DNA from: Chitinophaga sancti
GTDB lineage: Bacteria; Bacteroidota; Bacteroidia; Chitinophagales; Chitinophagaceae
Assembly: GCF_034087045.1 (NCBI RefSeq)
Contig: NZ_CP139247.1
Coordinates: 7,404,001 to 7,468,000 of the forward strand
DNA: 64,000 bases
Reading direction: 5' to 3'
Both the position numbers and the translations under genes were made by a program. This document shows, in pieces, positions 22,616 through 54,560 of this stretch. The notes beneath the pieces were generated by a model. That model did not search any database. It saw only the letters and a list, made by a program, of their open reading frames with translations, and was not told the origin of the DNA. How positions within the stretch are numbered: the stretch's first letter is position 1; every line of letters begins with the position of its first letter.

Positions 22616-22751
22616 AAGCCCTCAGGTCGAAAGATCTGGGGGCTTTGTTTTGAGATGGAAAAAATATTTGTTTTGAAATGGAATTTGCCTGTCATGTCAT
22701 GAATAATTTTGACTGTAACAGGTCCGGGGGGTCGAATCCATCTTTCTCCGC
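22616..22751 (+). repeat. Direct repeat 1: tRNA-Ser 3'-end fragment plus upstream arm
   Basis: 22711-22751 reads like the variable arm, T arm and acceptor 3' strand of a tRNA-Ser (GACTGTAACAGGTC, GTCGAATCC, CTCCGC), but no 5' half precedes it. It matches 54520-54560 at 34 of 41 bases, same orientation. Similarity continues upstream (GTCATGTCAT; TCAGGT and ATCTG hairpin words) for roughly 80 more bases. This is the shape of an attachment-site remnant at the 3' end of a tRNA gene. Followed by a terminator. Confidence 0.65.
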
Positions 22752-22752
22752 G

Positions 22753-22791
22753 AAAAGCAAGACCCGCTCTATAAGCGGGTCTTGCTTTTTT
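22753..22791 (+). terminator. Terminator after the tRNA-Ser fragment
   Basis: AAAAGCAAGACCCGC and GCGGGTCTTGCTTTTTT form a strong stem with a short loop and T tail, as expected behind a tRNA gene. Confidence 0.85.
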
Positions 22792-22888
22792 ACACATAAT
22801 CATGAATCCCTAACTTGTTTGTTTTCAACTACATTTAAGTTCGAAATCAATTGAATTTTCTGATGTAGCAATTCCCTGTTAATGTTAA

Positions 22889-23968
22889 TTAACTTTTTAG
22901 CAGTGCAAATAAGCTTGTATTGATATACAATATTTCCTTCCACACACGCCTGGATTCTAATATCCCGATTTCTTCCAATCCTTTCAGATATTTAGATGCA
23001 GTAATTCTTGATACACCTAATCGCTCAATCACATATTCAATTCTACAATAAGGCTGTTCAAATAATAGTTCTACCAACTCTTTATCATATAGCTTTTCAG
23101 CCTCAAGTTTTATTTTCTCCTGTGTGGTAATAAATAACCTATTAATCTCTTTAATCTGATTAATTGTTTGCTTTGCAGTTTGCTCAATTCCGTTCAGGAT
23201 ATAAAGAATCCATTCTTCCCATTCTCCACTTATGCGCACTTTCTGTAACAGTCTGTAATAGTCAGGTTTATTCTTTATTATGAAATCACTCAGATATAAT
23301 ATCGGACTATCAATCAATCCATGAATGATCAAATAAAGCACATTGATGATTCTTCCGGTGCAACCATTACCATCATAGAAGGGATGAATACTTTCAAACT
23401 GATAATGTTGTATTGCCAGTTTAATAAGGGGAGAAAGATCGTCTTTATAGTTTAAATATTCTTCCAGATTTTTCATCAGCTTAAGGATAGTATCATAGTC
23501 ATCAGGGGGAGTGTAAATAACTTCTCCTGTAGCTCCATTACGCAATGCTGTTCCTGGTAATTTACGTATACCTGCATTATTCTCTTCCAGCTTTTGTTGA
23601 ATACTGACAATTGAGTTGGTGTTTAAAAATCCTTTCTGCCTGATAAAATTGAATCCATATAAAACTGCTTCCCGATAGCGAAGCACCTCCTTCGTTGCCG
23701 GATCAACTAAGGATGTATCAGCAGATAATGCCTGATAAAGTTTATCCTGAGTTGTAATAACATTTTCAATCTCTGAACTGGCACTTGCTTCTTTTAATAT
23801 AACTGCATTGAGCAAAATATTGGGATTGGGTAGAATATTGGCCAATCCTTTTAACTCCGCTAAAGCCACTGACGAATTAACCAATTGCCTTAATATAGGC
23901 AGGGTTTCTATCATCGTTCTTCGTGGAGGAAGTGGAATAAGATCATTATATGGCTTATCAGGCTTCAT
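22889..23968 (-). CDS. Fic-family AMP-transferase with winged-helix tail
   Basis: 359 residues. The Fic core motif HPFYDGNGCTGR (from His195) is present and matches HPFxxGNGxxGR, so AMPylation (or related NMP transfer) on a hydroxyl side chain is expected. An upstream SSEIEN (64-69) fits the inhibitory S/TxxxE(G/N) helix that blocks ATP in self-inhibited Fic proteins. The C-terminal part (about 280-359, GVSRITASKYLKGLEEIG) is a winged helix, suggesting autoregulation or DNA binding. It is monocistronic, with no separate antitoxin. Just inside the first tRNA-Ser repeat, so probably island cargo. Confidence 0.9.
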   Translation of the reverse strand: MKPDKPYNDLIPLPPRRTMIETLPILRQLVNSSVALAELKGLANILPNPNILLNAVILKEASASSEIENVITTQDKLYQALSADTSLVDPATKEVLRYREAVLYGFNFIRQKGFLNTNSIVSIQQKLEENNAGIRKLPGTALRNGATGEVIYTPPDDYDTILKLMKNLEEYLNYKDDLSPLIKLAIQHYQFESIHPFYDGNGCTGRIINVLYLIIHGLIDSPILYLSDFIIKNKPDYYRLLQKVRISGEWEEWILYILNGIEQTAKQTINQIKEINRLFITTQEKIKLEAEKLYDKELVELLFEQPYCRIEYVIERLGVSRITASKYLKGLEEIGILESRRVWKEILYINTSLFALLKS

Positions 23969-24194
23969 ACATAGAAATTATACATGAGGCAATTGTCATG
24001 TAAAGATAATTCAATTTTTTATACATGACAAGTAATAAATAAAGAAGAATTGCAGTTAATCAATTCATTATCAATAATATAATAATTTTATCAGATGTAG
24101 ATATAGTGTAGCCAATCGCTGATATTTTTGGAAGGTGATTTTTGTAACACTGATGTTTCGATATCAAACCAAGTATACCCCTAAAGATGTAAAT

Positions 24195-24311
24195 GAAATT
24201 TGATCTATATCTGGCTTTCAACAGATTTTTAATTTCATTTTACCAATAAAGTTGTGAATCTCAGATAAATCTTCTGTAAATAGGTTAGAAAGTTGTCACC
24301 CAGTAGCCCGC
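24195..24311 (-). repeat. Sequence resembling the empty target site of the group II intron
   Basis: 24263-24286 matches the 3' flank of intron copy A (25468-25491) at 19 of 24 bases, and looser similarity extends leftward (TTGAAAGC.GATAT on minus). 24297-24311 matches the 5' flank of intron copy C (22595-22608; CCCGGTAGCCCGC against CCCAGTAGCCCGC). Here the two flanks are only about 10 bases apart, with no intron between them. Read as a fused exon junction, this is an intron-free relative of the target. Confidence 0.45.
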
Positions 24312-24762
24312 TAAATCCCGAAGGACCCCTCGCTAGTCACGGGTTTTTCTATTTAGGTTGATTAGTTAGTCGATTTCACCCCATTGCGATTGACAATATT
24401 ATTTTCTTCACACACCTTATGCTTGATTTGACAATGCAAAAGTCTATAGAAGTATAGTGACTGCACGGGAACTACATAGTAAGTTCAGTGTGTGGTAAAT
24501 CTCATTATTTCGAAATCAGGCTTAGGGCTTCTTTTTAAACAATGCACTATTCATACAGACCAAGGAACTCGTAAAGGCTAAAGTTTCCGAACTCACACCA
24601 CCAACATGATGATACAAATCTTCATCATCACCTCATAGACCGAACGCAGTTGCTGACAGTTCTTGTTACTATATCCCATCCTGGAGGTTTTATTGAGGGA
24701 ATAATTAGAAAATTAAGTGGGAAGTTCAGCTTGGGTTGCTACTATTGGGTACATAGACAATT

Positions 24763-24808
24763 AAAAGCAAAGCCACAAACCACTTAACGTATTCTGCGGC
24801 TTTGCTCT
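24763..24808 (-). terminator. Terminator of the RRM gene
   Basis: AGCAAAGCC and GGCTTTGCT form the stem, with a loop of about 23 bases and a T-rich tail on the minus strand. Located about 50 bp after the stop of the RNA-binding protein gene. Confidence 0.6.
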
Positions 24809-24858
24809 TCTGCTCTCTTAACAGATAAAGGTAATCGACGTTTTAAAACATCCAACTA

Positions 24859-25167
24859 TTAGTATCTGGGTCTAAATCCAGGTCTTGGGCCGGATCTGGA
24901 GAAACGATCATTTTCTGGTCTTTCAGGTTTTGGACGAGCCTCATACACTACTATTGTCTGGCCAGCAACTACTGAATTATTCAATTCCTTAATTGCCTGT
25001 ACTGCATTGGAATCGTCTGGCATTTCAACGAATGCAAAGCCTTTAGAACGGCCACTGTACTTATCATAAGCCACATTAATACTATATACAACTCCAAATG
25101 GGTCAAATAAAGACCATATTTCATCTTCAGTTGTTCTGTCACTTATATTACCTACAAAAATATTCAC
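24859..25167 (-). CDS. RNA-binding protein with one RRM domain
   Basis: 102 residues from the GTG at 25167 (VNIFVGNISDRTTEDEIW). An in-frame ATG at 25191 would add eight hydrophobic residues unlike the family, where proteins start at the first beta strand. RNP2 (IFVGNI) and RNP1 (KGFAFVEM) are both present. The tail after residue 80 is Arg/Pro-rich (RPENDRFSRSGPRPGFRPRY), as in cold-shock-linked RRM proteins of Bacteroidota and cyanobacteria. Single gene with its own terminator. Probably an RNA chaperone in the cytoplasm. Confidence 0.9.
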   Translation of the reverse strand: MNIFVGNISDRTTEDEIWSLFDPFGVVYSINVAYDKYSGRSKGFAFVEMPDDSNAVQAIKELNNSVVAGQTIVVYEARPKPERPENDRFSRSGPRPGFRPRY

Positions 25168-25487
25168 AATTATAATTTTAATTAAATACACATATTACTA
25201 AAAAACAGCAACTTAGGAAGAAAAGAAACCCAAAATAAATCAGAAGGGGCCAAATGCAACCTTGCTAAAGTTAGAGCAATAAATTGGGTAATACAGGATT
25301 AATTTATAGGGATATTACATTATTATTAAATTCTCTAATAAGGATTGCTGTATTAGTACTACAGAACAGATCAGATCGACTGAATGCACTGTGACATAGA
25401 TAGATTAGATAATATCCAGCTTTCAATATATTTTCATATTTAATCCAGCAATGAAACATTGGATGGCAGACAAATCTTCTACAAACT

Positions 25488-26181
25488 GGTTCCGGGTAGA
25501 GCGGTTTGTTACCTCCCCGCTCCCCTACAGATCCGTACGAGCGGATTTCCTGCACACGGTTCCTCTATTTACGGTTTCGCTAATCGATAACTGTGATGGA
25601 TCTTGGGTCGTATAAGTGGTATCCACTCTGTAGTCTGCTTCGCAATCCTATTCCATGTCCAGACACGTTTCCCGCCCCGATGGTTGAGCCATTTATGGAG
25701 CAGATGTTTTGTCCGGTTGTAATAAGTATGCAGCTTCCTACAGTTGAATGTTATACCGTAGTAGGCATAATGGCCGCGCAGCTTTTGGTTCAGCTCTTCG
25801 ATAAGTTCCCTCATCGGAAGCTGATGTCGGAAGCACTTGATCCAGTCGCTTATGCGTTTCAATGCTTGATTCAGTTTCTTACTGCTTGTTTTGCGCTTCA
25901 GGATTGGTTTTCCTTTTTGGCTTTTACTCATGTAATGGGTAAACCCTAAGAAGCCAAACGTTTTAATTGGATGATTTCCGTCTTTCTTTTCTTCTTCCAG
26001 GTCAATTAGTCTGGTCTTTTCAGGGTGTAGGGCAAGCCAAATTTCCCTAATCGCTTCGGCAGTACTTCCATCACCCGTAAAGCATCTTCCCTGTTTGTAA
26101 AACCCAACAGAAAATCATCCGCTTTGCGGATGATGAAGCTGCCACCTCTCAATAATGGCTGGAGCTGCTCTTTGAACCAGG
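25488..26181 (-). mobile_element. 3' fragment of a group II intron (copy A)
   Basis: It matches the 3' half of the intron at 39690-41195. It contains the C-terminal maturase part of the reverse transcriptase (open 25931-25569; LIEELNQKLRGHYAYYGI, KHLLHKWLNHRGGKRVW), then a domain V hairpin at 25528-25565 (GAACCGTGTGC, CTCGTACGG) and a domain VI-like stem. Homology stops abruptly at 26181 in the codons for WFKEQ. A 7-base deletion near 26030 relative to copy B breaks the frame. Dead fragment; the flank right of it is a truncated dehydrogenase gene. Confidence 0.8.
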
Positions 26182-26238: not shown

Positions 26239-26618
26239 CTATTGTAATTCCCTTTCCAATGGCTTTGCAACCATTTTATTAAAAATCTTCAGGGGAAGCA
26301 ACCAACGGAAAAAGAATGCAGATTTCGCCAGATAAGTTGCAGGATATCGCAATTTATCACGGTTATCAGTTATGGCTTTAAACGCTACTTTGGCTACAAC
26401 GTCAGGGATTGGTGCGTTTTTATCGCTTGCTATCATATTATGCTGAACCTTATTTGCATAATGATCGTAGTCGCTATTGGAAACGAACTGAATGTTATTA
26501 ACAAACTCACTTTTGATACTAGCTGGCTCCAGATTTTTTATAAGAATATTAAAGCCCCTGAGTTCATATTGCAACGCTTCCATAAATCCTTCTAATGCCC
26601 ATTTTGTGCTGTTATATG
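26239..26618 (-). pseudogene. Truncated short-chain dehydrogenase (SDR), C-terminal part
   Basis: The frame reads IGTYNSTKWALEGF (the YxxxK active-site region) and then MEALQYELRGFNILIKNLEP to ERELQ, the normal SDR C-terminus. The Rossmann half with the nucleotide-binding glycines is missing, because the homology starts 3 bp from the stop of the DJ-1 gene. So a deletion or rearrangement joined the DJ-1 end to an SDR tail. No complete enzyme is possible. Confidence 0.75.
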
Positions 26619-26621
26619 TAC

Positions 26622-27443
26622 CTATTTTTTAATCAACCAGTTTTCTACCGCTCTGGAAAAATCTGCTACATCAATAGGATGTCTGCTGGTAACCAGATTG
26701 CCATCGGTGACTACCGGTTGTTCTAACACAGTGGCGCCGGCATTTATCAGGTCACTTTGTATATTCCAGTAGCCGGTAAGCTTTTTTCCTTTGATGATAT
26801 CAGCAGATGCCAATACCACAGGTGCATGACAAATGGCTGCTATTAGTTTTCCGGATCTGTTAAATTCCTGCACAAATCTGATCACATCTTTATCAGCCCG
26901 AAGATTATCCGGATTCCAGGCGCCGCCGGGAATGAATACAGCATCATAGTCAGTAACATTAATCTGGTCTGCTGTACGATCGAATTTTATCCAACCTACG
27001 GGCTGCAGGTATTGTATAGCCATGACGTGAGTCTTTGACATCTCCGGATAAGCAAGCCCATATCTTTCCGGAGCTGGGTTGTACTTAGGCGCCACTATAT
27101 CAACGGTTGCTCCCAACTGTCTGAAATACCATACCGGCCCTGTTAATTCAATTTCTTCGAAACCGTCGGCCACAAGTACCGCTATCTTCTTACCTTTCAA
27201 AGCTGAACTATTTTTTACCGGGGTTAAGAAAAATGCTTTTAATGCTTCGTTGCCCGGTGCATTTAATAATTTTGATACGGGCATGTTTACAATAGCGGAT
27301 TGTGTTGATAATTGATTGACAATTTCCAGTTCGTTTGCGTTTACTGTATTCATATGTTCCGTTTTTACTTTTACCTGCGCTTTTGCAGTTGTAGCGATTA
27401 TAGTCAGTATTACCGCTACAATGACATGATTAAATGGTTTCAT
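26622..27443 (-). CDS. Exported DJ-1/PfpI-family protein
   Basis: 273 residues. A signal peptide (MKPFNHVIVAVILTIIATTAKAQ) is followed by a 60-residue linker and a DJ-1/PfpI fold (KGKKIAVLVADGFEEIEL, YDAVFIPGGAWNPD) with the nucleophile Cys in AICHAP. The Glu of FEEIEL sits at the usual acid position. Family members act as glyoxalase/deglycase-like hydratases, peptidases or chaperones; periplasmic location makes this one unusual. It starts 25 bp after the DJ-1/ABM fusion gene, so the two are probably co-transcribed. Confidence 0.85.
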   Translation of the reverse strand: MKPFNHVIVAVILTIIATTAKAQVKVKTEHMNTVNANELEIVNQLSTQSAIVNMPVSKLLNAPGNEALKAFFLTPVKNSSALKGKKIAVLVADGFEEIELTGPVWYFRQLGATVDIVAPKYNPAPERYGLAYPEMSKTHVMAIQYLQPVGWIKFDRTADQINVTDYDAVFIPGGAWNPDNLRADKDVIRFVQEFNRSGKLIAAICHAPVVLASADIIKGKKLTGYWNIQSDLINAGATVLEQPVVTDGNLVTSRHPIDVADFSRAVENWLIKK

Positions 27444-27468
27444 TTTTTTATTTTAATAGTTAATGATA

Positions 27469-28893
27469 CTATTGAAGAATAAGGGGTGCGAATTCAATCA
27501 GGTTATGCAGTCCCTTCTGAAATGGCTGCTCTTTGATACTTGAATTGAGGTAATCGATCACCGGTTGAATAGGCGGAAAATTAAGATGATATTGAAAAGC
27601 CGCATTACTTCTAAACTTTTCATATGTCACAAACTGAGTATCGTCTTCTTCCAATTGTGATAGTTGATAAGTAATGACGCCAGGTTCACTTCTGAATTGT
27701 GGCATTGCTACATGGTAAACATCCTTAAATCGCTGCTGTGTTCCAACCTTTGCACTTACAAACAGCATAATGGTAAGCTGACTGTCTGCTGCATTGGCTG
27801 TTTTACGCCATTGTTGTTTTGAAAGTGGTTCCAGGTCTTTTATAAGTATGCTTTTTATCGGATTCAGCAAAGCCTTTTCAGCTAATTGACTTACTGCCTG
27901 CGATTGAGCGTTACTTTTTGTTTTCATCCATTCTTCAATACTCCCCCACCGCTCTATTACCCAAAGTATGGAAGGATTTTCCCTTTCATAATAGGCTTCT
28001 GCCATAATATTGCTTTCAATATCGATAGCATATGATATGTATTCCGTAATTGCTTCTTTGAACTGGTCCTGGTATTCGGATTTTACTTCATAACGGGTAA
28101 GCCTTGCCACAGCCTGTTGCTGTTGCAAGGCTGATAATACAGCTTCTCCAACAGCTTTGGCCGATTGTGGATTCTGACCTGTAACCACGCGTTGGTCCGT
28201 TACAACATTTGATTGCCAGAGACCTGATTTTTCAAATATGGCCCCCCGCTCTATTAGTTTCGACTCCAGCAGAAAGGGCACAACCTTGTCAAGTTTAACA
28301 GCTACTTCTTCTTCATTGGTAAAGGCATTTATTTTTTTGCCATCAACCAGGTATTGGCCATTGGAAAGCCTGATATTGACAAGTCCTGCCGGGCCATGAC
28401 AAACAGCGCTTACAATGCCTCCGTTCTCATAGATCTTTGCCGCAATGGCAGCTAAAGCTGTATCATCTGCAAGATCCCACATAGCACCATGCCCACCCGC
28501 ATAGTGAATGGCAGCATATTGAGCGGGATCAACTTCGGATGGTTTTCGTGTGTTTTTAATTTTCTCCCTGTAAATAGCATCGTTCCAGAATTTTTTATTG
28601 ACAGCATCCCCCAGGTTGAAACCATCCACAGGTGCCTCTCCTCCTTTGGGACTAACAAAATCAATATCATAGTCAGCATCCGTAAGCACCTCCCAGGGAT
28701 AGGCCACTTCTGATAAATAGAATCCTGTTCTTTCACCAGTATTCCCTTTTTTATCGTGACTGGTTACTACAAATAGAATTTTCTTTTTCATCTTACTTAC
28801 ATTTAGTGCCATTGTATATGAGGTGCTTAACAAGAGAACCGTTATCAATACAAGCACACTATTGGTCTTAAATAGGCAAGCATTTACCCTCAT
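27469..28893 (-). CDS. DJ-1/PfpI (Hsp31-like) fused to two ABM-like domains
   Basis: 474 residues. A hydrophobic start (about 1-30) suggests export or membrane anchoring. Residues about 35-255 are an Hsp31-type DJ-1 domain (KKILFVVTSHDKKGNTGERT, HYAGGHGAMWDL, Cys in AVCHGPAG). Residues about 260-365 and 370-465 resemble antibiotic-biosynthesis-monooxygenase (ABM) dimeric alpha-beta barrels (RYEVKSEYQDQFKEAI; LFVSAKVGTQQRFKDVYH, FVTYEKFRSNAAFQYHL). ABM domains often act on quinones or haem. The combination suggests removal of reactive carbonyls or quinones (inference). An internal Met at KMKKKILF could be a shorter cytoplasmic start. Confidence 0.8.
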   Translation of the reverse strand: MRVNACLFKTNSVLVLITVLLLSTSYTMALNVSKMKKKILFVVTSHDKKGNTGERTGFYLSEVAYPWEVLTDADYDIDFVSPKGGEAPVDGFNLGDAVNKKFWNDAIYREKIKNTRKPSEVDPAQYAAIHYAGGHGAMWDLADDTALAAIAAKIYENGGIVSAVCHGPAGLVNIRLSNGQYLVDGKKINAFTNEEEVAVKLDKVVPFLLESKLIERGAIFEKSGLWQSNVVTDQRVVTGQNPQSAKAVGEAVLSALQQQQAVARLTRYEVKSEYQDQFKEAITEYISYAIDIESNIMAEAYYERENPSILWVIERWGSIEEWMKTKSNAQSQAVSQLAEKALLNPIKSILIKDLEPLSKQQWRKTANAADSQLTIMLFVSAKVGTQQRFKDVYHVAMPQFRSEPGVITYQLSQLEEDDTQFVTYEKFRSNAAFQYHLNFPPIQPVIDYLNSSIKEQPFQKGLHNLIEFAPLILQ

Positions 28894-29033
28894 TTCATTT
28901 TGTTTTTAACGTGTATGAATAAATTGCCAATTCAAAATTAGATGAGTATATATTCTTTAAGAAGTAATCAGATCACTAATAAAGTGTGATTTGAATCACG
29001 GCCAATGATGTGCACCATTAGCCGTGTCCGTTG

Positions 29034-29846
29034 TTATTCCGCTATGCTGAGCAATAGCTTAGACACTTCATGTGGTTGAGAGAGAAATGGGGAATGACTG
29101 GTATTTACTGTAAGGACGGTAGTAATGTGTGCTGCAGCTATCATATTGTCCTGCAGGGCTGGTGAAATAACAATATCCTTCAGTGTTTTGATATATATTT
29201 TTTTAACTGCGCCAAAAGCTGCATCAGTCAACGTAACCTTGTTGGAAAATGGAATGGCTGGCTCTGCACGATAATTATCAATTACCTGTTGTTTAACAGC
29301 GGGCGTACCATCATTGATAAAAAGCCAGGTAAGGCTATCGGCCTTTACATCGAGCGTCAACATGTCGGAAGAGGGAATTAATGAACCGCCCAGTTTAGAA
29401 TCAGGATCAGTGGGCGCCAGATCAGCCAGGGCCTGTCCCGATGCTGGCAGGAAAGCGCCAATGTAAACCAATTGGCTGATTTTGGAAGGGATCATCTCTG
29501 CCACAGCAGTGATCACCATGCCTCCCATGCTGTGCCCAACCAGGATAACTTTTTCATTTACTGTAGCAATGGCAGCTATCACTTTATCCCGGTAAACATC
29601 CAGACTCAATGATTGTGGGGGTGTTTTGTCACTGCCATGCCCCGGAAGTTCAACAACAATTACTTTGTTGCCTTTATTTAAAAGATCAGTACGTACGGCA
29701 TCCCAGACGTAAGACGCCTGCCATGCGCCATGTACCAGTACATAGGTCCTGGGGGTTCTGATAGTATTGTCTCCATTTTTTTTGCAGTCCGCAAATGTGG
29801 AGATCGTGAATGCTGCTGCTAGCAGCAGGGAAATTGTTTTTGTCAT
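29034..29846 (-). CDS. Exported alpha/beta hydrolase
   Basis: 270 residues. The N-terminus MTKTISLLLAAAFTISTFADC fits a lipoprotein or other signal peptide. The fold has YVLVHGAWQASYVWD (oxyanion HG), the nucleophile elbow GHSMGG, and the late His in NTSHSPFLSQP. It belongs to the esterase/salicylate-esterase-like branch (short lid, HGAW motif). Substrate unknown. It is spaced 140 bp from the downstream fusion gene and 384 bp from the upstream one, where a decayed fragment lies. Confidence 0.85.
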   Translation of the reverse strand: MTKTISLLLAAAFTISTFADCKKNGDNTIRTPRTYVLVHGAWQASYVWDAVRTDLLNKGNKVIVVELPGHGSDKTPPQSLSLDVYRDKVIAAIATVNEKVILVGHSMGGMVITAVAEMIPSKISQLVYIGAFLPASGQALADLAPTDPDSKLGGSLIPSSDMLTLDVKADSLTWLFINDGTPAVKQQVIDNYRAEPAIPFSNKVTLTDAAFGAVKKIYIKTLKDIVISPALQDNMIAAAHITTVLTVNTSHSPFLSQPHEVSKLLLSIAE

Positions 29847-29942
29847 CGTTTGTTGTTTTTTTGTGTTGATGTTTCTATATGGGGCGGAATCAGTTTGTAC
29901 ATTACCCGGTTAAGAATCCTTGAGAGCATGGTTGAACTGATT

Positions 29943-30105
29943 AAGCGCCAATAAGTACAATAGCCAATGGGGCGATCAGCGGGTTAGGTTTCAGGGCAAG
30001 TGGTATAAGTCCACAGATGGCCGTTATAGTAATTTACAAAACAAGCAGGAAGCGGGTTTCGAAGGAGATGGCAGCTATTGGGCCGAGCGACACAGCCGCG
30101 TTTCT
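29943..30105 (-). pseudogene. Possible remnant of an RND efflux permease
   Basis: Minus-strand translation reads AAVSLGPIAAISFETRFLLVL, stop, ITITAICGLIPLAL, then NPLIAPLAIVLIGA and a stop. The second part resembles the cytoplasmic-loop and following membrane segment near the end of AcrB-type pumps. It is short and interrupted, in an otherwise empty 384-bp gap. Moderate match at best. Confidence 0.35.
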
Positions 30106-30230
30106 GCGTAAAATATTCGCTGTTTGAAAGGAAAGTTTCCATAGTATGTCCTGGCCCTCACCAAAGAGACTGACTATAATATTGGCTTCCAGCGGCTTCC
30201 ATCTCTTATTTAATTGGATAATATTGCGCG

Positions 30231-32459: not shown

Positions 32460-32495
32460 ATTTTGGCAATTGTTGCAGTGGAAGTATTTTTTATT

Positions 32496-33065: not shown

Positions 33066-33082
33066 GATGTTGTTTTTATGTT

Positions 33083-33652: not shown

Positions 33653-33674
33653 GAATGTAGTTTTTAGATGTTCA

Positions 33675-43512: not shown

Positions 43513-43554
43513 TATGACAAATAGATTTGTATGACGCTGAGATTGTATGGTCAC

Positions 43555-43874
43555 GGGATGCGTATCTGTTAGTTGTACCTTTATCCCAATAGTTACACCA
43601 ACTGTAATATAATTTCCTGATACATCACATATCCAGCATCCGCAAACCTACATAAATATGAAAAGAAGGATGCCCTGTCCGTATTAGAATAAGATTAGAA
43701 TTCCTTATTTCGTCCAATCCTACCAGTATACAAATGCTTAACCGGCATCAAAAATCCCCCACTAAACCAGGTATTCCCCCAGGATGACATTAGAATTAAA
43801 TTAGAAATGAAGCGGGAGGATAATCGTCCGGAAGGAAAGTTTAAGTTGTAAATTGCATTATTTAGAATACTTAC
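43555..43874. promoter_or_regulatory. Divergent promoter region with paired direct repeats
   Basis: About 320 bp without a gene. Two 18-base sites, 43683-43700 and 43789-43806, agree at 16 of 18 bases. Each contains two ATTAGAA words 11 bases apart (ATTAGAATAAGATTAGAA and ATTAGAATTAAATTAGAA), the shape of a site for an OmpR-type dimer. The right site lies 68 bp before the response-regulator start; the left one faces the minus-strand gene. Autoregulation and control of both directions are likely (inference). Confidence 0.55.
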
Positions 43875-44573: not shown

Positions 44574-44576
44574 TAT

Positions 44577-45959: not shown

Positions 45960-46061
45960 TGCAGAAAATATTACTATATTATTAATAGAGGATAACATAT
46001 AAGATCAAATTCTTTTTTTTCAAAAGCTATTGGTTACCATCTTATAGCCTGTGTCTTAAAA

Positions 46062-46505
46062 TTAGTTTTCCATTTCCTTTAACTTCGCTTTCATAATAGC
46101 AATCTCTCTCTCCTGCGATTCTATAATACTATTTGATAATTTTTTTACTTCCGGGTCCTGAATATCCGCATGTTTGCTTGTAAGGATCGCAGAAGAATGA
46201 TGGGGAATCATGGCCCTCATGTACTCGGCATCACTTATAAAAAATTGCTTTCTTAACATAACAAGTACAATTATAAATATAACTGCACTGGAAGCAAGAA
46301 TCCTATAATTAAGTTTTTTGTTCGCGTACATTTTACCCATCATTAATAGCATAATCAATGCCATTGGGGCAACCATCAGAATTGTCATGTAGAGCCGGGT
46401 AATGCTTAAATAAACATGACTGACCTCATCCACGTTTAAAAACATTACCACATACATAATTATAAACGAAAGGCCCAGCGTAATGAAAAATCTTTTATAA
46501 CTCAT
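46062..46505 (-). CDS. DUF305-type membrane protein
   Basis: 147 residues. Several hydrophobic helices (about 5-100; LYMTILMVAPMALIMLLMMG) are followed by MIPHHSSAILTSKHA, the HH-containing motif of DUF305, and SQEREIAIMK. DUF305 proteins are often found with copper-resistance genes and may bind metal through the His pair. It is convergent with the two-component pair. Exact function unknown. Confidence 0.8.
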   Translation of the reverse strand: MSYKRFFITLGLSFIIMYVVMFLNVDEVSHVYLSITRLYMTILMVAPMALIMLLMMGKMYANKKLNYRILASSAVIFIIVLVMLRKQFFISDAEYMRAMIPHHSSAILTSKHADIQDPEVKKLSNSIIESQEREIAIMKAKLKEMEN

Positions 46506-46588
46506 CTTTACATATTTTTGGATTAGTTGGTTAGATTATCCACAATATGCGCTCAATTATAGGGCCATGAATCTAAGTGAAGAGCTCA

Positions 46589-47821
46589 TTATTGTAATTT
46601 ATTTGCAAATCTGCCTATTGTTAAGCCTTGTACAAGAATTGAAAATACCACAACAATATATGTAATGAAAACAAACTCATCACGGTGCATAAATGGACTA
46701 AGTGAAAGTGCAAGTGCTACTGAAATTCCACCTCTAAGTCCTCCCCATGTAAGTATAGCCACGGCATGTTTTTCAAACTTTATCTTGTAACGCAGTAAAA
46801 ACACGGGGAAAATAACTGATACCCAGCGGGCAAAAAGTACAATCAGGATGCATATTACTCCTATTATAAATATAGTTGTATTCACCTTTACAATCAGCAT
46901 TTCCATACCAATTAATAAAAAAAGAATGGCATTTAAAATTTCGTCAATTAACTCCCAGAATTTCCCCAGGTAATCACGCGTCAAGTCAGACATTCCTTCC
47001 TTTTTTGCTTTATTACCCGTAATAATACCGGCTACAACCATTGCCAGTGGCCCTGACACATGCAGGTGATCTGCAAAAAAATAACCGCCCATCACAATAG
47101 CTAAAGTAATTAACACCTCTACCTTATAATCATCAATTGAACGCAAGGCATAATATCCCATATATCCCAGCAGTGCACCAAACAACACACCTCCTATAGC
47201 TTCTTCGAGAAATAAACGTCCAATCGCCAATGCTGAAAACTCTCCCCCTGAGGAACGTGCAATCTCTTCTATACTGATAAATATCACTACTGCCACTCCA
47301 TCATTAAATAACGACTCCCCGGAAATTTTACTTTCAAGTGAAGAAGGGATATTGGTCTTCTTTAGAATTCCAAGTACAGCAATAGGATCTGTTGGAGAAA
47401 TCAAAGCCCCAAAAAGCAGACAATATATAAAAGAAATTGGCAGCTTGAATAATCCAAAAAGATACCACACAAGACCTCCAATAATAAAAGTAGAAATTAG
47501 TACCCCCAATGTGGCCAGTAGCATAACAGCCCATTTTTCCTGCTTCAATTTTTGTGCATCGATATGTATCGCGCCAGCAAATAAAAGAAAGCTTAGCATA
47601 AAATTCATCAGCAGATCCTTAAAATCAACAGATTCCGCAAGTTGAACGGCCTTCTCTGATAATACAGAATGAGCGCCTCCCATAAAAGCAAGCACAATCG
47701 ATGACATTAAGGATAGCGCCATTATTCCTATGGTAGGTGGCCATTTGATGAAATGGTGATTAATGTAAGCAAATATGGCTGTGAGTACAATTGTGATAGC
47801 TAAAATCTCCTGTATGCTCAT
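46589..47821 (-). CDS. CPA1-family Na+(K+)/H+ antiporter (NhaP-like)
   Basis: 410 residues with 12-13 membrane helices. Signature residues are ISPTDPIAVLG (Asp) and GESLFNDGVAV, where the Asn-Asp pair fits electroneutral CPA1 exchangers. No long cytoplasmic C-terminal domain. It exports Na+ or K+ in exchange for protons. It neighbours a second antiporter (nhaA), which fits a role in salt/alkali tolerance. Confidence 0.92.
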   Translation of the reverse strand: MSIQEILAITIVLTAIFAYINHHFIKWPPTIGIMALSLMSSIVLAFMGGAHSVLSEKAVQLAESVDFKDLLMNFMLSFLLFAGAIHIDAQKLKQEKWAVMLLATLGVLISTFIIGGLVWYLFGLFKLPISFIYCLLFGALISPTDPIAVLGILKKTNIPSSLESKISGESLFNDGVAVVIFISIEEIARSSGGEFSALAIGRLFLEEAIGGVLFGALLGYMGYYALRSIDDYKVEVLITLAIVMGGYFFADHLHVSGPLAMVVAGIITGNKAKKEGMSDLTRDYLGKFWELIDEILNAILFLLIGMEMLIVKVNTTIFIIGVICILIVLFARWVSVIFPVFLLRYKIKFEKHAVAILTWGGLRGGISVALALSLSPFMHRDEFVFITYIVVVFSILVQGLTIGRFANKLQ

Positions 47822-47866
47822 GTATATTTTTTAATTAATAGATAGTCGGAAGTGATTAATTTAAAA

Positions 47867-49603
47867 TTAGATAATCAGGCGCACTCCTCCAAGATCTGAA
47901 ACCCGATGAGAAAAACGGTCACTAGGTGAACTTATAAACATAAAGTTTATTGGAATATTCCATTCTTTACTTAGCTTTTCAATCATTTCAGGACAAAATG
48001 TACCATGTACCTGTACATATTCTATTTTGATATCTGGATATGCCCGATCCAATACTTCCAGATCGCTTAGAAAATGATCCGATATTCTAATGCTTTCATT
48101 TAATACAGTAACTATTTTAAGTTTCCTTGTAATTTCATTCTCCTGCACATAGATCATTACTTTATTCAATATTGAAATGTCGTCCCCTTTAGTAAAGTAA
48201 ATAAATTCCTGCTCCTGCAATTTCTTCAATGTTCGGGAAAGATGGAATCTGCTTATAGCTGCTGCATTTTTTAATTTTATAAAAAACTTATCCACTACAA
48301 CTAGCATGTACTTCAGAATTTCATTCCTATTTAAGAGTAGAAATATAATTATGATGGAAGGCAGGAAATACTGCAGGAAGACGATAAGGTAACCTGCATG
48401 CAAAGATATATTACCATAAAGGGCAGCAGCTACTGCGCAAATAGCGATAGCAACAGAAAAGGTGCTTGCCTTTTCATGTCTGGGCAACCGGCTTCTTTTA
48501 ATTTTTAGCAGGAAATTTCCAAATCCAAAATAGATCATTACCAGTAGGAACGAAATAGTATAAACACCTGCAAGAGGGCCTAGCGCCCCATGAGTAATAA
48601 ACAGTACTGACAAACAAAGTAAATAAAATAGAATCAATATTCTTGGAGTACTACCATTTCTATTTTCTTTCAGCAGAAATTGTGGTAAAATACGGTCAAG
48701 TGTCATTCTTTTTATCAATCCATTGACACCAACATATGAAGTAAGGAGCGCTCCGCTTAATACCAGTACAGCGTCAATTGAAATGAATATTTGAAGCCAG
48801 TGCCCACCTGTATTATTTCCCAGGTAAGAGAGCAAGGCTTCTTCATGACTTATAACATCCGAAATCGGGAGAACCATTATTGCCGTAAGTGCCATCAGCG
48901 GATTAATAATAGTAACCGCTACCCACATATTTCTCAGGGTTTTTCTGAATACTCCGTTTTTTTGTTCTTCTACAAAGTTAGCAGAACTTTCAAAACCAGA
49001 AATCCCAAGCATTGCAGTACTAAATCCTAAAAACAAAGCAACCCCAAAGCCACCATTCATTGGTGTATGAAAATTAAGTTTTGCAATATTCAGCCCGTGA
49101 TAAGTAACATACCATATGCCACTAATGATAAGCGTTAACATGGCCAATATATGCAATACAAAAATGATAATCGCAACAACCGAGGATTCACTTATACCTG
49201 ACATCACCAATAGCAGAAATACGGTGATCAGTAAGGTAGTTGCTAAAATAACATTAACGGACGGGAAAATACCATGCAGGTAATGCATAGCTTCACTTGC
49301 AGATATTACCGCGGTCGTCATATAAGATAGTATAGTAAGGCATGCTGCAATGGATGCATTACTTTTACTGGTAGTATTTAGCAGAACATTATAAGCTCCC
49401 CCGTTTAATGGAAGTGCACCTACCACTTCACTATATATTTTACGGAAGAGAAACAATACTCCTGCCACAATAAGTAATGCCAGCCAGGCATATTGTCCCG
49501 CATAGATAATAGTAAGAGCAGATACATACAGGCATGACGAAGTAATATCATTTCCACAAATTGCTGTAGCGGCGAGTTCACTTAATTTTTTAGGATGTTT
49601 CAT
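47867..49603 (-). CDS. APC-family permease with C-terminal cytoplasmic domain
   Basis: 578 residues. About 12 membrane helices in APC order (SELAATAICGNDITSSCLYV at the start; GGAYNVLLNTTSKSNASIAA; GISGFESSANFVEEQKNG). Residues about 450-578 are soluble (TRKLKIVTVLNESIRISDH), reminiscent of a universal-stress-like domain. APC members move amino acids or, in related branches, K+; the ion-transport neighbourhood leaves either open. Starts 45 bp upstream of the CPA1 gene, same strand, so likely one operon. Confidence 0.85.
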   Translation of the reverse strand: MKHPKKLSELAATAICGNDITSSCLYVSALTIIYAGQYAWLALLIVAGVLFLFRKIYSEVVGALPLNGGAYNVLLNTTSKSNASIAACLTILSYMTTAVISASEAMHYLHGIFPSVNVILATTLLITVFLLLVMSGISESSVVAIIIFVLHILAMLTLIISGIWYVTYHGLNIAKLNFHTPMNGGFGVALFLGFSTAMLGISGFESSANFVEEQKNGVFRKTLRNMWVAVTIINPLMALTAIMVLPISDVISHEEALLSYLGNNTGGHWLQIFISIDAVLVLSGALLTSYVGVNGLIKRMTLDRILPQFLLKENRNGSTPRILILFYLLCLSVLFITHGALGPLAGVYTISFLLVMIYFGFGNFLLKIKRSRLPRHEKASTFSVAIAICAVAAALYGNISLHAGYLIVFLQYFLPSIIIIFLLLNRNEILKYMLVVVDKFFIKLKNAAAISRFHLSRTLKKLQEQEFIYFTKGDDISILNKVMIYVQENEITRKLKIVTVLNESIRISDHFLSDLEVLDRAYPDIKIEYVQVHGTFCPEMIEKLSKEWNIPINFMFISSPSDRFSHRVSDLGGVRLII

Positions 49604-49747
49604 ACAGGTATTTCTTTAGCCTTTAGACAGCCATGATTCTAAATTAACACAATAATGCCGGAAAAATAGTGTATCCCTTATTTTCGGGCCGATTTAAGAT
49701 GTTTGAGTATCTTTAATCTGATGTTTTCATATAACACAATAAAATAT

Positions 49748-51067
49748 ATGGCTAAATCTCCTATTGAACAACTACTTCAACCTGTTAACAGATTTATACA
49801 TCAGGAATTTACAGGTGGAATTATTCTTTTTGTAAGCGTATTGTTAGCTATTGTCTGGGCAAATTCTCCATGGCAGGAATCTTATCATAATCTGTGGGAT
49901 ACAAAATTCGCCGTTAGCTTTGCAGGAAAAGAACTTGACCAACCGCTTCATGTCTGGATAAATGATGGTTTAATGGCTATATTCTTTTTTGTAATTGGAC
50001 TGGAACTAAAAAGGGAATTTATGGCCGGCGAACTTTCATCTATGAAGAAAGCATCTCTTCCTATGATGGCTGCTTTGGGAGGAATGTTAGTTCCTGCAAT
50101 TATTTATTACTCAATTAATAAAGGCCTTCCATCTGAAAACGGCTGGGGAATACCTATGGCTACTGATATAGCCTTTGCACTTGGTCTTTTATCTCTTGCC
50201 GGAAAACATATTCCGGTATCTGTCAAGGTATTTCTTTCTGCGCTTGCTGTGGCTGATGATCTGGGGGCTGTTCTGATAATAGCGTTCTTCTATACAGCAC
50301 AAATAGCCGTAGCTCCATTAGTTATTTCCGGTATATTGCTCTTATTACTAGGAGCAGGCAATTTTCTTGGTATTCGTAATACCCTGTTTTATCTTATTGT
50401 AGGCATAGCTATATGGGGAGGATTTCTTTTCTCTGGCGTTCATGCAACTATTGCAGGCGTACTCGTTGCATTTATGATACCTGCAAGAACAAAAATAGAT
50501 GAGAACGAATACCTGGATAAAATAAATAAACATTCAGAAGAGTTTAAATTATCTATTCCTCAGAATGGATCTCTTATTACAACGGAACAACATCAAACTA
50601 TTGAGAAAATAAAACAATTATGCCTTGATGCGGAAACCCCTCTGCAAAAGATTGAATATGCGTTACATCCATGGGTAGCATTTATAATTATGCCGCTGTT
50701 TGCATTGGCTAATGCAGGCATGCATATCGGTAGTAATTTCTTTTCTTCTCTCATGAATCCAGTCAGTATGGGTGTAGCCGCAGGTCTCCTTATAGGTAAA
50801 TTTATAGGTGTACTTACTTTTACCTGGTTGATGATCCACTTTAAATTAGCTGAATTACCTAACCAGGGAACCTGGAAACATATATCCGGCATCGCAATGC
50901 TGGCTGGGGTAGGCTTCACCATGTCTCTTTTTGTTACAGGTCTTGCCTTTAATGATGAGATAATGATTGACCATTCTAAATATGGCATTCTCCTGGCCTC
51001 AATAATAGCAGGCATTGCCGGAATTGTTATATTAAGGAAAGGTCAGGTCCACGAAAAACAAATGTAA
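49748..51067 (+). CDS. nhaA: Na+/H+ antiporter NhaA
   Basis: 439 residues from the ATG at 49748 (MAKSPIEQLLQPVNRFIHQE); the in-frame ATG at 49703 adds 15 residues that do not fit the family. The ion-binding Asp pair is in ALAVADDLGAV, and MATDIAFALGLL and VGFTMSLFVTGLAF are conserved. It exports two protons' worth of Na+ exchange under alkaline conditions in the inner membrane. The last extension has HEKQM. Divergent from the APC gene; the DUF389 gene follows 43 bp later. Confidence 0.95.
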   Translation: MAKSPIEQLLQPVNRFIHQEFTGGIILFVSVLLAIVWANSPWQESYHNLWDTKFAVSFAGKELDQPLHVWINDGLMAIFFFVIGLELKREFMAGELSSMKKASLPMMAALGGMLVPAIIYYSINKGLPSENGWGIPMATDIAFALGLLSLAGKHIPVSVKVFLSALAVADDLGAVLIIAFFYTAQIAVAPLVISGILLLLLGAGNFLGIRNTLFYLIVGIAIWGGFLFSGVHATIAGVLVAFMIPARTKIDENEYLDKINKHSEEFKLSIPQNGSLITTEQHQTIEKIKQLCLDAETPLQKIEYALHPWVAFIIMPLFALANAGMHIGSNFFSSLMNPVSMGVAAGLLIGKFIGVLTFTWLMIHFKLAELPNQGTWKHISGIAMLAGVGFTMSLFVTGLAFNDEIMIDHSKYGILLASIIAGIAGIVILRKGQVHEKQM

Positions 51068-51110
51068 ACCGGTTACGTATATATTACCAGAGAATGCTTA
51101 TAACAAGAAT

Positions 51111-52439
51111 ATGACAGAACTGAGGTTTATAAGAATATTAAAAGTTACGATTCGCAGAAGGTTTAATCTCCATCTGGATAAAGCAAATGAGGATGACGTT
51201 GTGCTCACTATTAAGAAAAATTCTGATTTTATCGGTGCTAATTTATGGACGCTGATATTTGCCATTTTCATGGCATCGATAGGCCTTAATGTTAATTCCA
51301 CTGCTGTCATTATAGGAGCGATGCTTATATCTCCGCTAATGGGTCCAATAATGGGAATTGGTCTTGGCATCGGAACGAATGATTTTCAGTTAGTAAAAAA
51401 GGGGAGTCGTAATTTACTGCTTGCTACCTTCATTGCTATCTCCACTTCTACCTTTTATTTCTGGATAACACCCTTACATGATGCACAAAGTGAGTTGCTT
51501 GCCAGGACGACCCCATCATTATGGGATGTTTTTATTGCTTTCCTTGGTGGTCTTGCAGGTATTGTAGCAGGGACAAGAAAGGAAAAAAGTAATGTTATTC
51601 CCGGGGTAGCCATTGCAACAGCATTGATGCCCCCATTATGTACCGCAGGGTTCGGATTGGCTTCAGGAAACCTTTATTATTTTTTAGGCGCACTATACCT
51701 GTATTTTATTAATAGTGTATTTATTTGCATAAGTACATTTTTAATAGTCCGGTTTCTAAAATTCAAAAAAATCCACTTTGAGGATAAAGGATATGAGAAA
51801 AAAGTATCCCGGTATATTCTTCTCACTATCATCATTACGATATTACCAAGTATTTTTATGGCATACCGTATTGTAGATAAAAGTATCTTTGAGAATAACG
51901 CAAGGTCCTTTCTAAGGGAAGAATTCAATTTTAAAAACACACAGATTGTAAATAGATCGTTCCTTTATAATCCCAAAGGAAATGAGATTGACCTGTTACT
52001 TATAGGAAGAGATCTTAGCCCCGAAACAATCGACTCCATAAAAGGGAAAATGAAAAAATATCATCTTAAAAACACTAAACTTTCAGTGAGACAAGGCTTG
52101 AATGCCAAACAGGAAATTGATTTCACCCAAATTAAAGCCAGTATTCTTGAAGATGTCTTTAAAAGAGATTCCGCTATAAAAGAAAAAGTTACTGTATCAT
52201 CTTATTCAGAAAAGCAATTGCCCGATATCCGTGAAGAATTAAAATCATTATATCCTGAGATAAAATATTATACTTTATCTAATGTGGTTTTTCACAGTAT
52301 GGATTCCCTCAGGAATGATACCCTCACACTTGTTATAGCAAAATTTGTTAAACCTATCAGGAAGATAGATGCGAATAAGTTGCAGAATTGGCTCAAACAA
52401 AGATTAGAAGCAGATTCCATAAAGTTAATAGTTCAGTAA
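51111..52439 (+). CDS. DUF389 membrane protein (TIGR00341-like)
   Basis: 442 residues. The DUF389 core with conserved NSTAVIIGAMLISPLMGPIM and GLAGIVAGTRKEKSNVIPGV, PGVAIATALMPPLCTAGFGL lies in about 20-230 with 6-7 membrane helices. A soluble C-terminal half (about 240-442) follows. Family function is unknown; it is often near transporters and salt-stress genes. It sits in tandem between nhaA (43 bp) and mscS (31 bp to its ATG). Confidence 0.85.
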   Translation: MTELRFIRILKVTIRRRFNLHLDKANEDDVVLTIKKNSDFIGANLWTLIFAIFMASIGLNVNSTAVIIGAMLISPLMGPIMGIGLGIGTNDFQLVKKGSRNLLLATFIAISTSTFYFWITPLHDAQSELLARTTPSLWDVFIAFLGGLAGIVAGTRKEKSNVIPGVAIATALMPPLCTAGFGLASGNLYYFLGALYLYFINSVFICISTFLIVRFLKFKKIHFEDKGYEKKVSRYILLTIIITILPSIFMAYRIVDKSIFENNARSFLREEFNFKNTQIVNRSFLYNPKGNEIDLLLIGRDLSPETIDSIKGKMKKYHLKNTKLSVRQGLNAKQEIDFTQIKASILEDVFKRDSAIKEKVTVSSYSEKQLPDIREELKSLYPEIKYYTLSNVVFHSMDSLRNDTLTLVIAKFVKPIRKIDANKLQNWLKQRLEADSIKLIVQ

Positions 52440-52469
52440 TATTTGTTCATAAAAGGTCATTCAGTTATT

Positions 52470-54359
52470 ATGTACAGCAAAAAATCATTCGTCATATTTG
52501 CGATAGTATGCCTTTTTTCAATGATTGCTTTTTCTCAAAGCAAATTGACGAAAGACAGCATGTATGCTGATTCTTTACATGAGGAAACTGAGCAATTATT
52601 GATACAGAGCCGGCAACAAAAGCTAATAGATTCATTACTAAAAAGTCAATTGCAAAAAGATCTTTTATCTGCAGCAAATGATAAACAAAAAACAAAAGAA
52701 CTTGAAGATAAAATAAGTCGAATGGCTATTCAGGATTCCATTCAAAAAGCAGCACAATATAAGAGACTAAGTGAACTAAAAAAACGAGCCACCCGTTTTG
52801 CGGTAGCCCCCTTTTCTGATACTTTATTCTATATCTACACCAAAATAGGATCATTTAGCCCCCAGGAGAGGGCTGTAGCCATTAATCAAAGAATAATACA
52901 ATTATATGAAGATCCATTTTTCCAGTCAGATTCTTTGAAAATAAGCGAATCAGATGACAGTTATGATATTTTATATAATAATGAGAAGCTTGTACTATCT
53001 ATCACCAGTCTTGATGCTCTTTGGTTAAATAAAGGGCAGAAGCTGCTGGCGAATGAATACCTGGACATAATTAAAAAATCAATTATTGCTGAAAAAAAGG
53101 CAAACAGCTTCGATACATGGCTCAAACATTTCGCACTTGTCCTGATCATTATTGCAGGGTTAGCTATTCTGATATTTCTAATCAATAAGATTTTCAAGCA
53201 TCTCACAAATTTATTAAATCAAAAGAAGGACCGGTATTTAAAAGGATTGACCTTCCGGAAAATAAAAATACTGAGTGCCGAACAACTTCAACAGGTTGCT
53301 ATAAAAATTAAGAATATACTTAGGGTTGCTGTTATTATACTATCAATATATCTTTCACTTCCACTGTTATTTAATATTTTCCCCGAAACTAAAACCTGGA
53401 CAGGGAAATTACTGGAATGGATATTCACCCCTACTAAATCTGCACTAAATGGAATCATGCACTTCCTGCCTAATTTGTTTACTATACTGGTTATATATTT
53501 CCTTTTCAGATATGCTATAAAAGTGTTGAAATATTTTGTAGATGAAATTGATAAGGGTAATATTACCATTAGCGGTTTTCATGCCGATTGGGCACAAACG
53601 ACCTTCAACATTACTAAATTCATGCTGTATGCATTCATGTTAGTTCTTATCTTTCCATATTTACCTGGATCTGGATCTGCCGCATTTCGGGGCGTCTCTG
53701 TCTTCGTAGGTGTGATTTTTTCGCTTGGATCATCCAGTGCTATCTCAAATATGGTTGCAGGTTTAGTGATTACTTACATGCGTCCATTTAAAATAGGTGA
53801 CCGTATAACAATCGGGGAAATAACAGGAGATGTAATTGAAAAAACGATGCTGGTTACAAGAATCAGAACTATCAAAAATGAAGATGTAACTTTACCCAAC
53901 TCTGCTGTTTTATCGGGTAATACGATTAACTACTCCAATAACACCAAACCTGAGGATAAAGGGTTAATTCTGCATACTACCGTTACTATTGGATACGATG
54001 TACCATGGCAAGAGGTTCACCAGGCGCTGATAAAAGCAGCATTAAGAACTGACATGATCCTCAGTGACCCCACTCCTTTTGTGTTGCAAACCGGGCTTGA
54101 CGACTTTTACGTTTCTTATCAGATAAATGGATATTCTAAAGAGGCAAACAAACAAGCCAATATATATTCTGATTTACATAAAAATATACAGGATTGCTGT
54201 AATGAAGCAGGGATAGAAATATTATCTCCTCATTATCGTCAATTGCGGGATGGTAATATGACAACTATTCCAAAGGACTATTTAGACAAGAACTATGAAG
54301 TGCCCGAATTTAATATCAAAATTAAAAATGATCAATCTGATAATGGTTCTCCCAGCTAA
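52470..54359 (+). CDS. MscS-family mechanosensitive channel, large form
   Basis: 629 residues from the ATG at 52470 (MYSKKSFVIFAIVCLFSMIAF gives a signal peptide); a TTG at 52443 is possible but adds nine residues before the signal. A long periplasmic coiled-coil region (about 25-220) is followed by four membrane helices and the MscS core: LGSSSAISNMVAGLVITYMR and PFKIGDRITIGEITGDVIEK, then LPNSAVLSGNTINYS. It releases solutes on sudden osmotic downshift. Ends the nhaA-DUF389-mscS set. Confidence 0.9.
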   Translation: MYSKKSFVIFAIVCLFSMIAFSQSKLTKDSMYADSLHEETEQLLIQSRQQKLIDSLLKSQLQKDLLSAANDKQKTKELEDKISRMAIQDSIQKAAQYKRLSELKKRATRFAVAPFSDTLFYIYTKIGSFSPQERAVAINQRIIQLYEDPFFQSDSLKISESDDSYDILYNNEKLVLSITSLDALWLNKGQKLLANEYLDIIKKSIIAEKKANSFDTWLKHFALVLIIIAGLAILIFLINKIFKHLTNLLNQKKDRYLKGLTFRKIKILSAEQLQQVAIKIKNILRVAVIILSIYLSLPLLFNIFPETKTWTGKLLEWIFTPTKSALNGIMHFLPNLFTILVIYFLFRYAIKVLKYFVDEIDKGNITISGFHADWAQTTFNITKFMLYAFMLVLIFPYLPGSGSAAFRGVSVFVGVIFSLGSSSAISNMVAGLVITYMRPFKIGDRITIGEITGDVIEKTMLVTRIRTIKNEDVTLPNSAVLSGNTINYSNNTKPEDKGLILHTTVTIGYDVPWQEVHQALIKAALRTDMILSDPTPFVLQTGLDDFYVSYQINGYSKEANKQANIYSDLHKNIQDCCNEAGIEILSPHYRQLRDGNMTTIPKDYLDKNYEVPEFNIKIKNDQSDNGSPS

Positions 54360-54439
54360 ATGAAGCTTGTCAATGCCAACTAAAGATGCAATTGCAGCAG
54401 TATAGAGGAATGTGTCAAACATATTGCAGCAGCGGAATT

Positions 54440-54560
54440 GGTCAGGTGAAAAATCTGAAGGCCTTTTTGTATTTGGGAAGTTTAAGATGGAATCCGGAGG
54501 TCATGTCATAAAAGATTTAGACGGTAACGGGTCTGGGGCGGCGAATCCCTCTTTCCCCGC
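54440..54560 (+). repeat. Direct repeat 2: tRNA-Ser 3'-end fragment plus upstream arm
   Basis: 54520-54560 (GACGGTAACGGGTC, GGCGAATCC, CCCCGC) matches 22711-22751 at 34 of 41 bases, same orientation. Similarity also runs upstream (GGTCATGTCATAAA; TCAGGT and ATCTG words). No 5' half of a tRNA and no terminator after it. With repeat 1 it brackets a 31.8-kb segment. Confidence 0.65.

Follow-up and report, generated by a model that had tools for sequence, protein, structure and literature searches.

The closest described relatives of the DNA considered here may be the ssrA islands of Dehalococcoides, which lie in tandem downstream of a stable-RNA gene and belong to the serine recombinase DsiB (McMurdie et al. 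2011, PMC3146451). As passages of that paper describe it, DsiB has about 540 residues, is encoded on the reverse strand beside attL and has a 3' end that always overlaps the RNA gene/attL. Several of the islands have no integration genes and are proposed there to be cis-mobilizable, and the authors suggest that a full-length DsiB may exist only on the circle or where a neighbouring island supplies the 3' gene fragment; the same passages use the term cis-mobilizable element (CIME) and also name the staphylococcal cassette chromosome (SCC) (PMC3146451). Here we describe a stretch of 64,000 nucleotides of Chitinophaga sancti (contig NZ_CP139247.1, positions 7,404,001 to 7,468,000), called the window below, in which a 31.8-kb segment lies between two same-orientation 3'-end fragments, or tails, of a tRNA-Ser gene. 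We think it probable that this segment belongs to an array built by tandem accretion from elements of a large serine recombinase (LSR), most of them without a recombinase. The nearest parallel would then be the ssrA islands together with the accretion of CIMEs, moved to tRNA genes.

The likeness to the DsiB islands lies in a recombinase gene that adjoins an RNA gene on the reverse strand with its 3' end overlapping it (in the window as a remnant only), and in tandem order downstream of such a gene. The same-strand sites that follow one another here are of two kinds, the tails, which are true copies of a tRNA-Ser 3' end, and a motif called motif iii below, whose likeness to a tRNA end is limited to GGTTCGA and CCGC. 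The differences are that three tRNA genes rather than a tmRNA gene are involved, that there is a separate right-end motif with what may be the C-terminal tail of the enzyme, that the cassettes are small and that the genus is another. The six-gene integration module of the DsiB islands was not seen here, and no search aimed at that module was made.

Other known systems share parts of this picture. CIMEs and their tandem accretion were reportedly treated by Pavlovic and colleagues in 2004, and the classic case uses a tyrosine integrase. The window has in common with them att-like sites at both ends, tandem stacking and the lack of a recombinase in the 24 larger reading frames scanned with Pfam between the tails, where the initial annotation had likewise seen no integrase; it differs in that the recombinase is a serine recombinase, and mobility in trans is our proposal here. 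SCC, with CcrA and CcrB, is also a large serine recombinase system, which inserts at the 3' end of the conserved gene rlmH and forms composite tandem cassettes. The enzyme class, the insertion at a 3' end and the tandem cassettes are shared, but the target here is a tRNA gene, and one LSR with a long open frame, although its best NCBIfam models were XisF and CcrB, stayed far under the cut-offs of both (48 bits against 900 for CcrB), which places it outside the Ccr enzymes. Integron cassettes are small, lie on the same strand and change neighbours between genomes, as the cassettes described here do; in contrast to integrons, the window holds no IntI or other tyrosine integrase (none of the 12 PF00589 matches of the genome falls inside it) and its sites resemble tRNA 3' ends. 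Phage phiRSM1 at a tRNA-Ser 3' end and the mycobacterial actinomycete integrative and conjugative elements (AICEs) at tRNA-Leu are given in passages of one account as serine recombinase elements that target tRNA genes (PMC3218068). Both place a serine recombinase at a tRNA gene, phiRSM1 even at the 3' end of a tRNA-Ser, but each uses one tRNA type, whereas here one family is found at three types with stacked cassettes. No account of such a system in Chitinophaga or the Bacteroidetes was found among the papers listed from the open-licence literature.

The features that bound the variable DNA and the segment are the following.

16389-16463, + strand: tRNA-Asp(GUC), left edge of the variable region, whose end CCGC is the joint (ARAGORN; synteny with genome G014 to 16989)
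16437-16946, - strand: LSR remnant, C-terminal third, overlapping tRNA-Asp on the opposite strand (82% identity to residues 281-450 of L071:851-2272; tblastn)
16464-16508, + strand: left end of the recombinase element, a terminator hairpin (conserved in 17 of the 18 LSR copies aligned, the 18th read separately)
22711-22751, + strand: tRNA-Ser(UGA) 3' tail 1, the end of a terminator-plus-tail unit at 22609-22751 (sequence comparison)
54520-54560, + strand: tRNA-Ser(UGA) 3' tail 2; homology to genome YR573 restarts at 54562 (sequence comparison)

The genome itself (G000) is one contig of 8.32 Mb, in which the window is C1:7404001-7468000. Its closest relative, G014, with 96% identity across a 5-kb core block, is collinear with it as far as window position 16989, which lies 0.5 kb beyond tRNA-Asp, and then from 68081 (window frame) onward; from about 17.0 to 68.1 kb the two genomes hold different DNA. 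Inside this variable region they share one strong DNA match, the RRM block at 24674-25399 (95%), and a second at 24146-24377 that is short and weak. The initial annotation had read the DNA from 22.7 to 54.6 kb as a single element bounded by tRNA-Ser. That segment is absent as a whole from G014 and was not found in conserved order in relatives, but it is not a single unit, as the variable region begins at tRNA-Asp and further sites subdivide the segment. A shift in GC content had been proposed as a check at 22.7 and 54.5 kb, and 2-kb bins give no sharp step there (0.392 between the tails, 0.432 to the left and 0.417 to the right). The locus does not have the pattern of a classic tyrosine-integrase island, which is flanked by the intact target tRNA gene and by the displaced 3' fragment of that gene; blastn over 7.364-7.576 Mb found no 3' fragment of tRNA-Asp.

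One island of 31.8 kb lying between the tails, or carrying them, would agree with their shared orientation and with the absence of the whole segment from G014. Against this, the variable region is larger than the segment, and parts of the segment occur apart, with the Fic gene in G081 and elsewhere in G014 and an RRM match in 39 of the 79 genomes of the genus, some of these matches being weak. Genome YR573 contradicts the island directly, since it has the redox block without the ion-transport cassette. We set the single island aside on the synteny with G014 and on YR573, and would leave it the slimmest of chances. With fair confidence we take the segment between the tails as a row of separately acquired gene cassettes.

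A recombinase may link this row to tRNA genes. It had been suggested at the outset that tRNA 3' ends are attachment sites for integrases; a relic of a recombinase is indeed present, but it lies outside the segment, directly after tRNA-Asp (16437-16946), and comes from a serine rather than a tyrosine recombinase. By Pfam alone the remnant gave no match, and three relatives with long open frames carry Resolvase and Recombinase domains. All of the 18 distinct LSR copies that we compared, from 12 genomes, abut a tRNA 3' end or a fragment of one: 9 at tRNA-Asp, 5 at tRNA-Ser(GGA), 3 at tRNA-Ser(UGA) and 1 at a short tRNA-Ser(GGA)-like 3' fragment, this sample consisting of the best homology matches plus others retrieved, with many weaker homologues outside it. 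The gene lies on the strand opposite the tRNA, its reading frame enters the antisense tRNA, and the first 45 nt of the element are the conserved terminator. In G014 a stretch of 8.3 kb at tRNA-Ser(UGA) is 97.3% identical to one at tRNA-Asp, and in G081 and G086 two more LSR remnants or left ends abut tRNA-Ser tail units. The C. sancti genome has two LSR genes with long open frames outside the window, one of them at C1:516551. The few neighbours scanned around one LSR gave HEPN, IS66 and HisKA.

The array could have formed as follows. Elements of the LSR family would enter immediately downstream of tRNA genes whose last bases are CCGC (Asp, Ser-GGA and Ser-UGA), so that the left end of the element, with the terminator and then the opposite-strand LSR gene, comes to abut an intact tRNA. 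The right end would be motif iii, which resembles a P arm, ends in CCGC and may encode the C-terminal tail of the LSR (in frame at one locus). Repeated insertion would stack elements head to tail, and most of them would have lost the LSR gene and survive as site-bounded cassettes that can be moved in trans only. The LSR is the presumed catalyst of the exchanges and CCGC the presumed crossover, and the tails at 22.71 and 54.52 kb may be right-end sites that belong to this family or to a related one. The array at tRNA-Asp would then read LSR remnant, site 1, tail-1 unit, Fic, RRM, redox, ion transport, tail 2.

The sites and cassettes of the window, together with the mobile elements among them, are these.

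20448-21821: IS110 transposase (Pfam)
22299-22515, - strand: 5' part of a group II intron inside site 1 (RF02005, 108 bits)
22584-22608, + strand: motif-iii site 1, right half, ending CCGC
22752-24311: Fic cassette, with a Fic/SoFic-like gene at 22889-23968 on the - strand (Pfam; homologues in G081 and G014)
24263-24311, + strand: motif-iii site 2
24312-25491: RRM cassette, with an RRM gene at 24859-25191 on the - strand (Pfam)
25461-25491, + strand: motif-iii site 3, left half
25492-25862, - strand: 3' fragment of a group II intron (homology to L291 of G081)
25569-25931: maturase-domain reading frame of a group II intron (GIIM, Pfam)
26239-39394, - strand: genes of the redox and signalling block (Pfam; right end common to YR573)
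39664-39694, + strand: motif-iii site 4, left half
39695-41192, - strand: group II intron with broken reverse-transcriptase frames that splits site 4 (RF02005 at 40908-41124; RVT_1)
41193-41217, + strand: motif-iii site 4, right half, ending GGC
41218-54560: ion-transport cassette with ClC, a response regulator and kinase, Na/H exchangers, a permease and an MscS-like gene (Pfam)

All mapped sites and tails are on the + strand. When both strands of the window plus 6 kb were searched with the two half-sites, 4 places matched, against none in five shuffles. From this map it follows that the segment consists of the Fic cassette, the RRM cassette, the redox block and the ion-transport cassette; the Fic gene, intron pieces, redox cluster and ion-transport block had been named from the letters alone. 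The final 15 nt of site 4 (41203-41217) match the tRNA-Asp 3' end at 14 of 15 positions, in which the other motif-iii sites differ.

Motif iii is 48 nt long, and the 0.96 Mb searched hold 43 matches, mostly downstream of tRNA-LSR loci. Its opposite strand encodes LAGYRGQLSNQFVEDLSKIHAFISEI or a similar peptide. Near 27.37 kb in G014 a frame with an LSR end (NEKGTDHLLDNQSLLA) continues into motif iii and stops after ...GCRGQSSNLFNEDLSKIADFLRKYE, and for this reason we read the motif as a right-end arm that may hold the C-terminus of the enzyme. Motif iii is broken by group II introns at nearly one and the same position (GGT^TCGAA) in three cases in the window (22583/22584, 25491/25492 and 39694/41193) and in one case in G081 (L291, near 16.16 kb); these introns lie on the strand from which the LSR C-terminus would be read. 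We also considered that the redox block had split a single group II intron, and rejected this because 39672-40063 holds a second copy of the 3' part of the intron.

Comparison with relatives gives the joints of the cassettes. The Fic cassette of G081 is homologous to ours starting at window position 22753, a start that in either genome lies two bases beyond the joint, and it comes after motif iii there and after tail 1 in the window. The Fic homologue of G014 is at another locus, and its homology stops 1 nt past a site. The RRM block is 93-97% identical in G026, G010, G063, G096, G028 and G064, where the core block has 81%; against G026 the RRM gene has zero third-position differences and the non-coding flanks are 96% identical. 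The RRM cassette starts beside a tRNA-Ser tail in G026 and beside site 2 in the window. These comparisons point to an RRM block that is itself mobile, and because the block moves we rejected the idea that the RRM gene is an anchor of ancestral DNA left between the tails; the G014 copy, which is in the variable region of that genome, may be vertical. The redox block of YR573 (window 31944-39693, 88%) stops at a motif-iii-like site that has no interruption; homology restarts about 220 bp further on, at window 54562 (94.6%), and the ion-transport cassette is absent. Redox genes stand beside the regulator gene only in YR573 among the 80 loci listed, and neither ClC nor MscS stands beside it in any of the 80 (8-kb flanks). 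Relatives of the MscS-like and regulator genes, among the matches listed, do not share a contig in five genomes and are separated by 2.36 Mb in a sixth.

Several breakpoints thus fall at the joints. Across all compared regions, the right ends of alignments are at a site in both partners in 33 of 199 cases (at most 1 in random placements, n=300), and the left ends in 6 of 183, or 48 if ends in the tRNA T-arm are counted too. Two or more sites occur in 24 regions, and in each of these they are on the same strand. These results bear on an explanation in which there is no site-specific recombination and dispersed repeats were spread and rearranged by homologous recombination, by insertion sequences or by group II introns. 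Such shuffling has in its favour the group II introns in three window sites, the IS110 transposase and the fact that the sites are multicopy, but it does not agree with the one-strand order, with breakpoints within a few bases of a site end or with an LSR beside a tRNA end at every one of the loci examined. We consider it very improbable.

Cargo blocks between tail or motif-iii sites recur elsewhere in the genus, as at L070 and L225 (G014 and G086) and at L077 and L227 (G031 and G064). The HxlR-SDR block has 93.6% identity over 2.7 kb between G031 and G064, and the common part ends 4 nt past a site. Loci L220-L223 (G062 C20 and G076 C1) hold a block of about 28 kb with similar genes between two tRNA-Ser tail arrays, both of which contain complete tRNA-Ser genes. 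These 28-kb segments were rejected as full elements; they lie between pairs of tRNA-Ser arrays, and no recombinase was seen in them by eye, no family search having been made.

The coordinates of the tails and their match to each other (34 of 41, by eye) had been given correctly, and their tRNA-Ser identity holds, with 39 of 41 positions for tail 1 and 34 of 41 for tail 2 against the tRNA-Ser(UGA) of the same genome. Neither has a 5' half, since ARAGORN calls only tRNA-Asp (16389-16463) in the 64-kb window. The likeness that had been noticed upstream of both is a common terminator hairpin and right-end stretch, and the tails do resemble right ends of related elements. The unit is ordered as the terminator hairpin, about 40 nt, then GTCATGTCAT...ATTT (the stretch ends in ATTTT or ATTTA), then the tail. 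With up to 2 mismatches, the pattern of this joint is present in 30 of the 79 genomes (27 of the 76 good ones), with 0 in the reversed control; against Rfam at a loose threshold the unit gave nothing convincing.

A search with the last 21 nt of tRNA-Ser(UGA), allowing 3 mismatches, gave matches far above chance, as there are 10 places in 8.32 Mb and 0 for the reversed control. They are 2 intact tRNA-Ser(UGA) genes, 2 other tRNA-Ser genes, 5 tails without a 5' half, which include both window tails, and 1 other, at C1:4573223, that looks unrelated. The repeat is dispersed in the genus, as had been allowed for, yet it is tied to tRNA-Ser rather than unrelated to it. The search for an intact gene gave two identical tRNA-Ser(UGA), ending at C1:7569519 (+) and C1:6645234 (-). 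The nearest tRNA-Ser sits 111 kb past tail 2 on the same strand, and the window tails are orphans; as the displaced end of that gene, at 7.5694 Mb and downstream of tail 2, they were rejected. In G010, G031 and G032 tail units stand in tandem directly after an intact tRNA-Ser(UGA), spaced 115-156 bp, and in G014 they are scattered across 13 kb with cargo genes in between. The 115-156-bp units at L044, L045 and L042 (G010, G032 and G031) are free of cargo and consist of tRNA-Ser tail, terminator and right-end stretch.

A number of points weigh against the LSR array. It is read here from sequence comparison. The identity of the tails begins in the variable arm and not in the T-arm, so the tails may belong to another integrase. 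The in-frame C-terminus in motif iii occurs at one LSR-like frame only, and a less strict scan added two frames that lie upstream of the motif and show no LSR likeness by eye. The redox block has a mapped joint on its right side only, and the joint in YR573 is not clean, as the site ends GTAGCATAC instead of CCGC and the 220 bp after it are other sequence. The set of breakpoints is redundant, its 31 distinct sites being 22 tRNA-Ser ends or tails, 7 motif iii and 2 tRNA-Asp, and motif iii is joined to motif iii in only 4 alignments. The regions compared had also been picked for tails or recombinases.

Some of this would be explained by two systems, in which LSR elements made the motif-iii cassettes, the tail units are attR scars left at tRNA-Ser by a tyrosine-integrase family with no relation to the LSR, and the window is a later patchwork of both. 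The start of tail identity in the variable arm fits this, as do the tail arrays after tRNA-Ser(UGA) without an adjacent LSR, for example those of G010, G031 and G032, and an island of the same genome at the tRNA-Ser(UGA) at 6.645 Mb, where a tyrosine integrase adjoins the tRNA and tails stand 73 kb downstream. However, LSR left ends adjoin tail units in G081 and G086, the same cassette has a tail before it in one genome and motif iii in a second, and the tail array of G014 has no tyrosine integrase inside, by eye. We hold two systems to be unlikely, but the tails may still belong to either family.

The 6.645-Mb island (C1:6571821-6645319, L083-L086) is about 73 kb long, with the tyrosine integrase beside tRNA-Ser(UGA) and three tail fragments at the far end; neighbouring frames may be conjugation genes. 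G014 has five clusters of three adjacent tyrosine recombinases (C1:41497-43970, 3148234-3150707, 4022406-4024879, 4275084-4277557 and 8603560-8606012), which presumably resemble recombinase-in-trio elements.

The tandem array of LSR elements can be extended into a wider proposal, which we put forward tentatively and with the balance somewhat against it. The genus may share an integron-like serine recombinase system, in which small cassettes bounded by mimics of tRNA 3' ends move in trans among tRNA-Asp and two tRNA-Ser loci, and in which integration would swap the C-terminus of the LSR for antisense tRNA, so that the enzyme would differ between its free and integrated states.

Serine recombinase elements at tRNA genes are of a kind rarely described. 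One LSR family at three tRNA genes contrasts with passages of two accounts, in which tRNA genes are said to lie outside the known targets of serine recombinases (PMC4383910) or to be rare among them (PMC3218068). The locus also carries a caution, that tRNA fragments of the same orientation need not delimit one island. If the proposals made here are true, these elements would provide a system for asking how a single serine recombinase can use several tRNAs as targets, whether exchange of its C-terminus determines the direction in which it works, and how cassettes without a recombinase spread across a genus.

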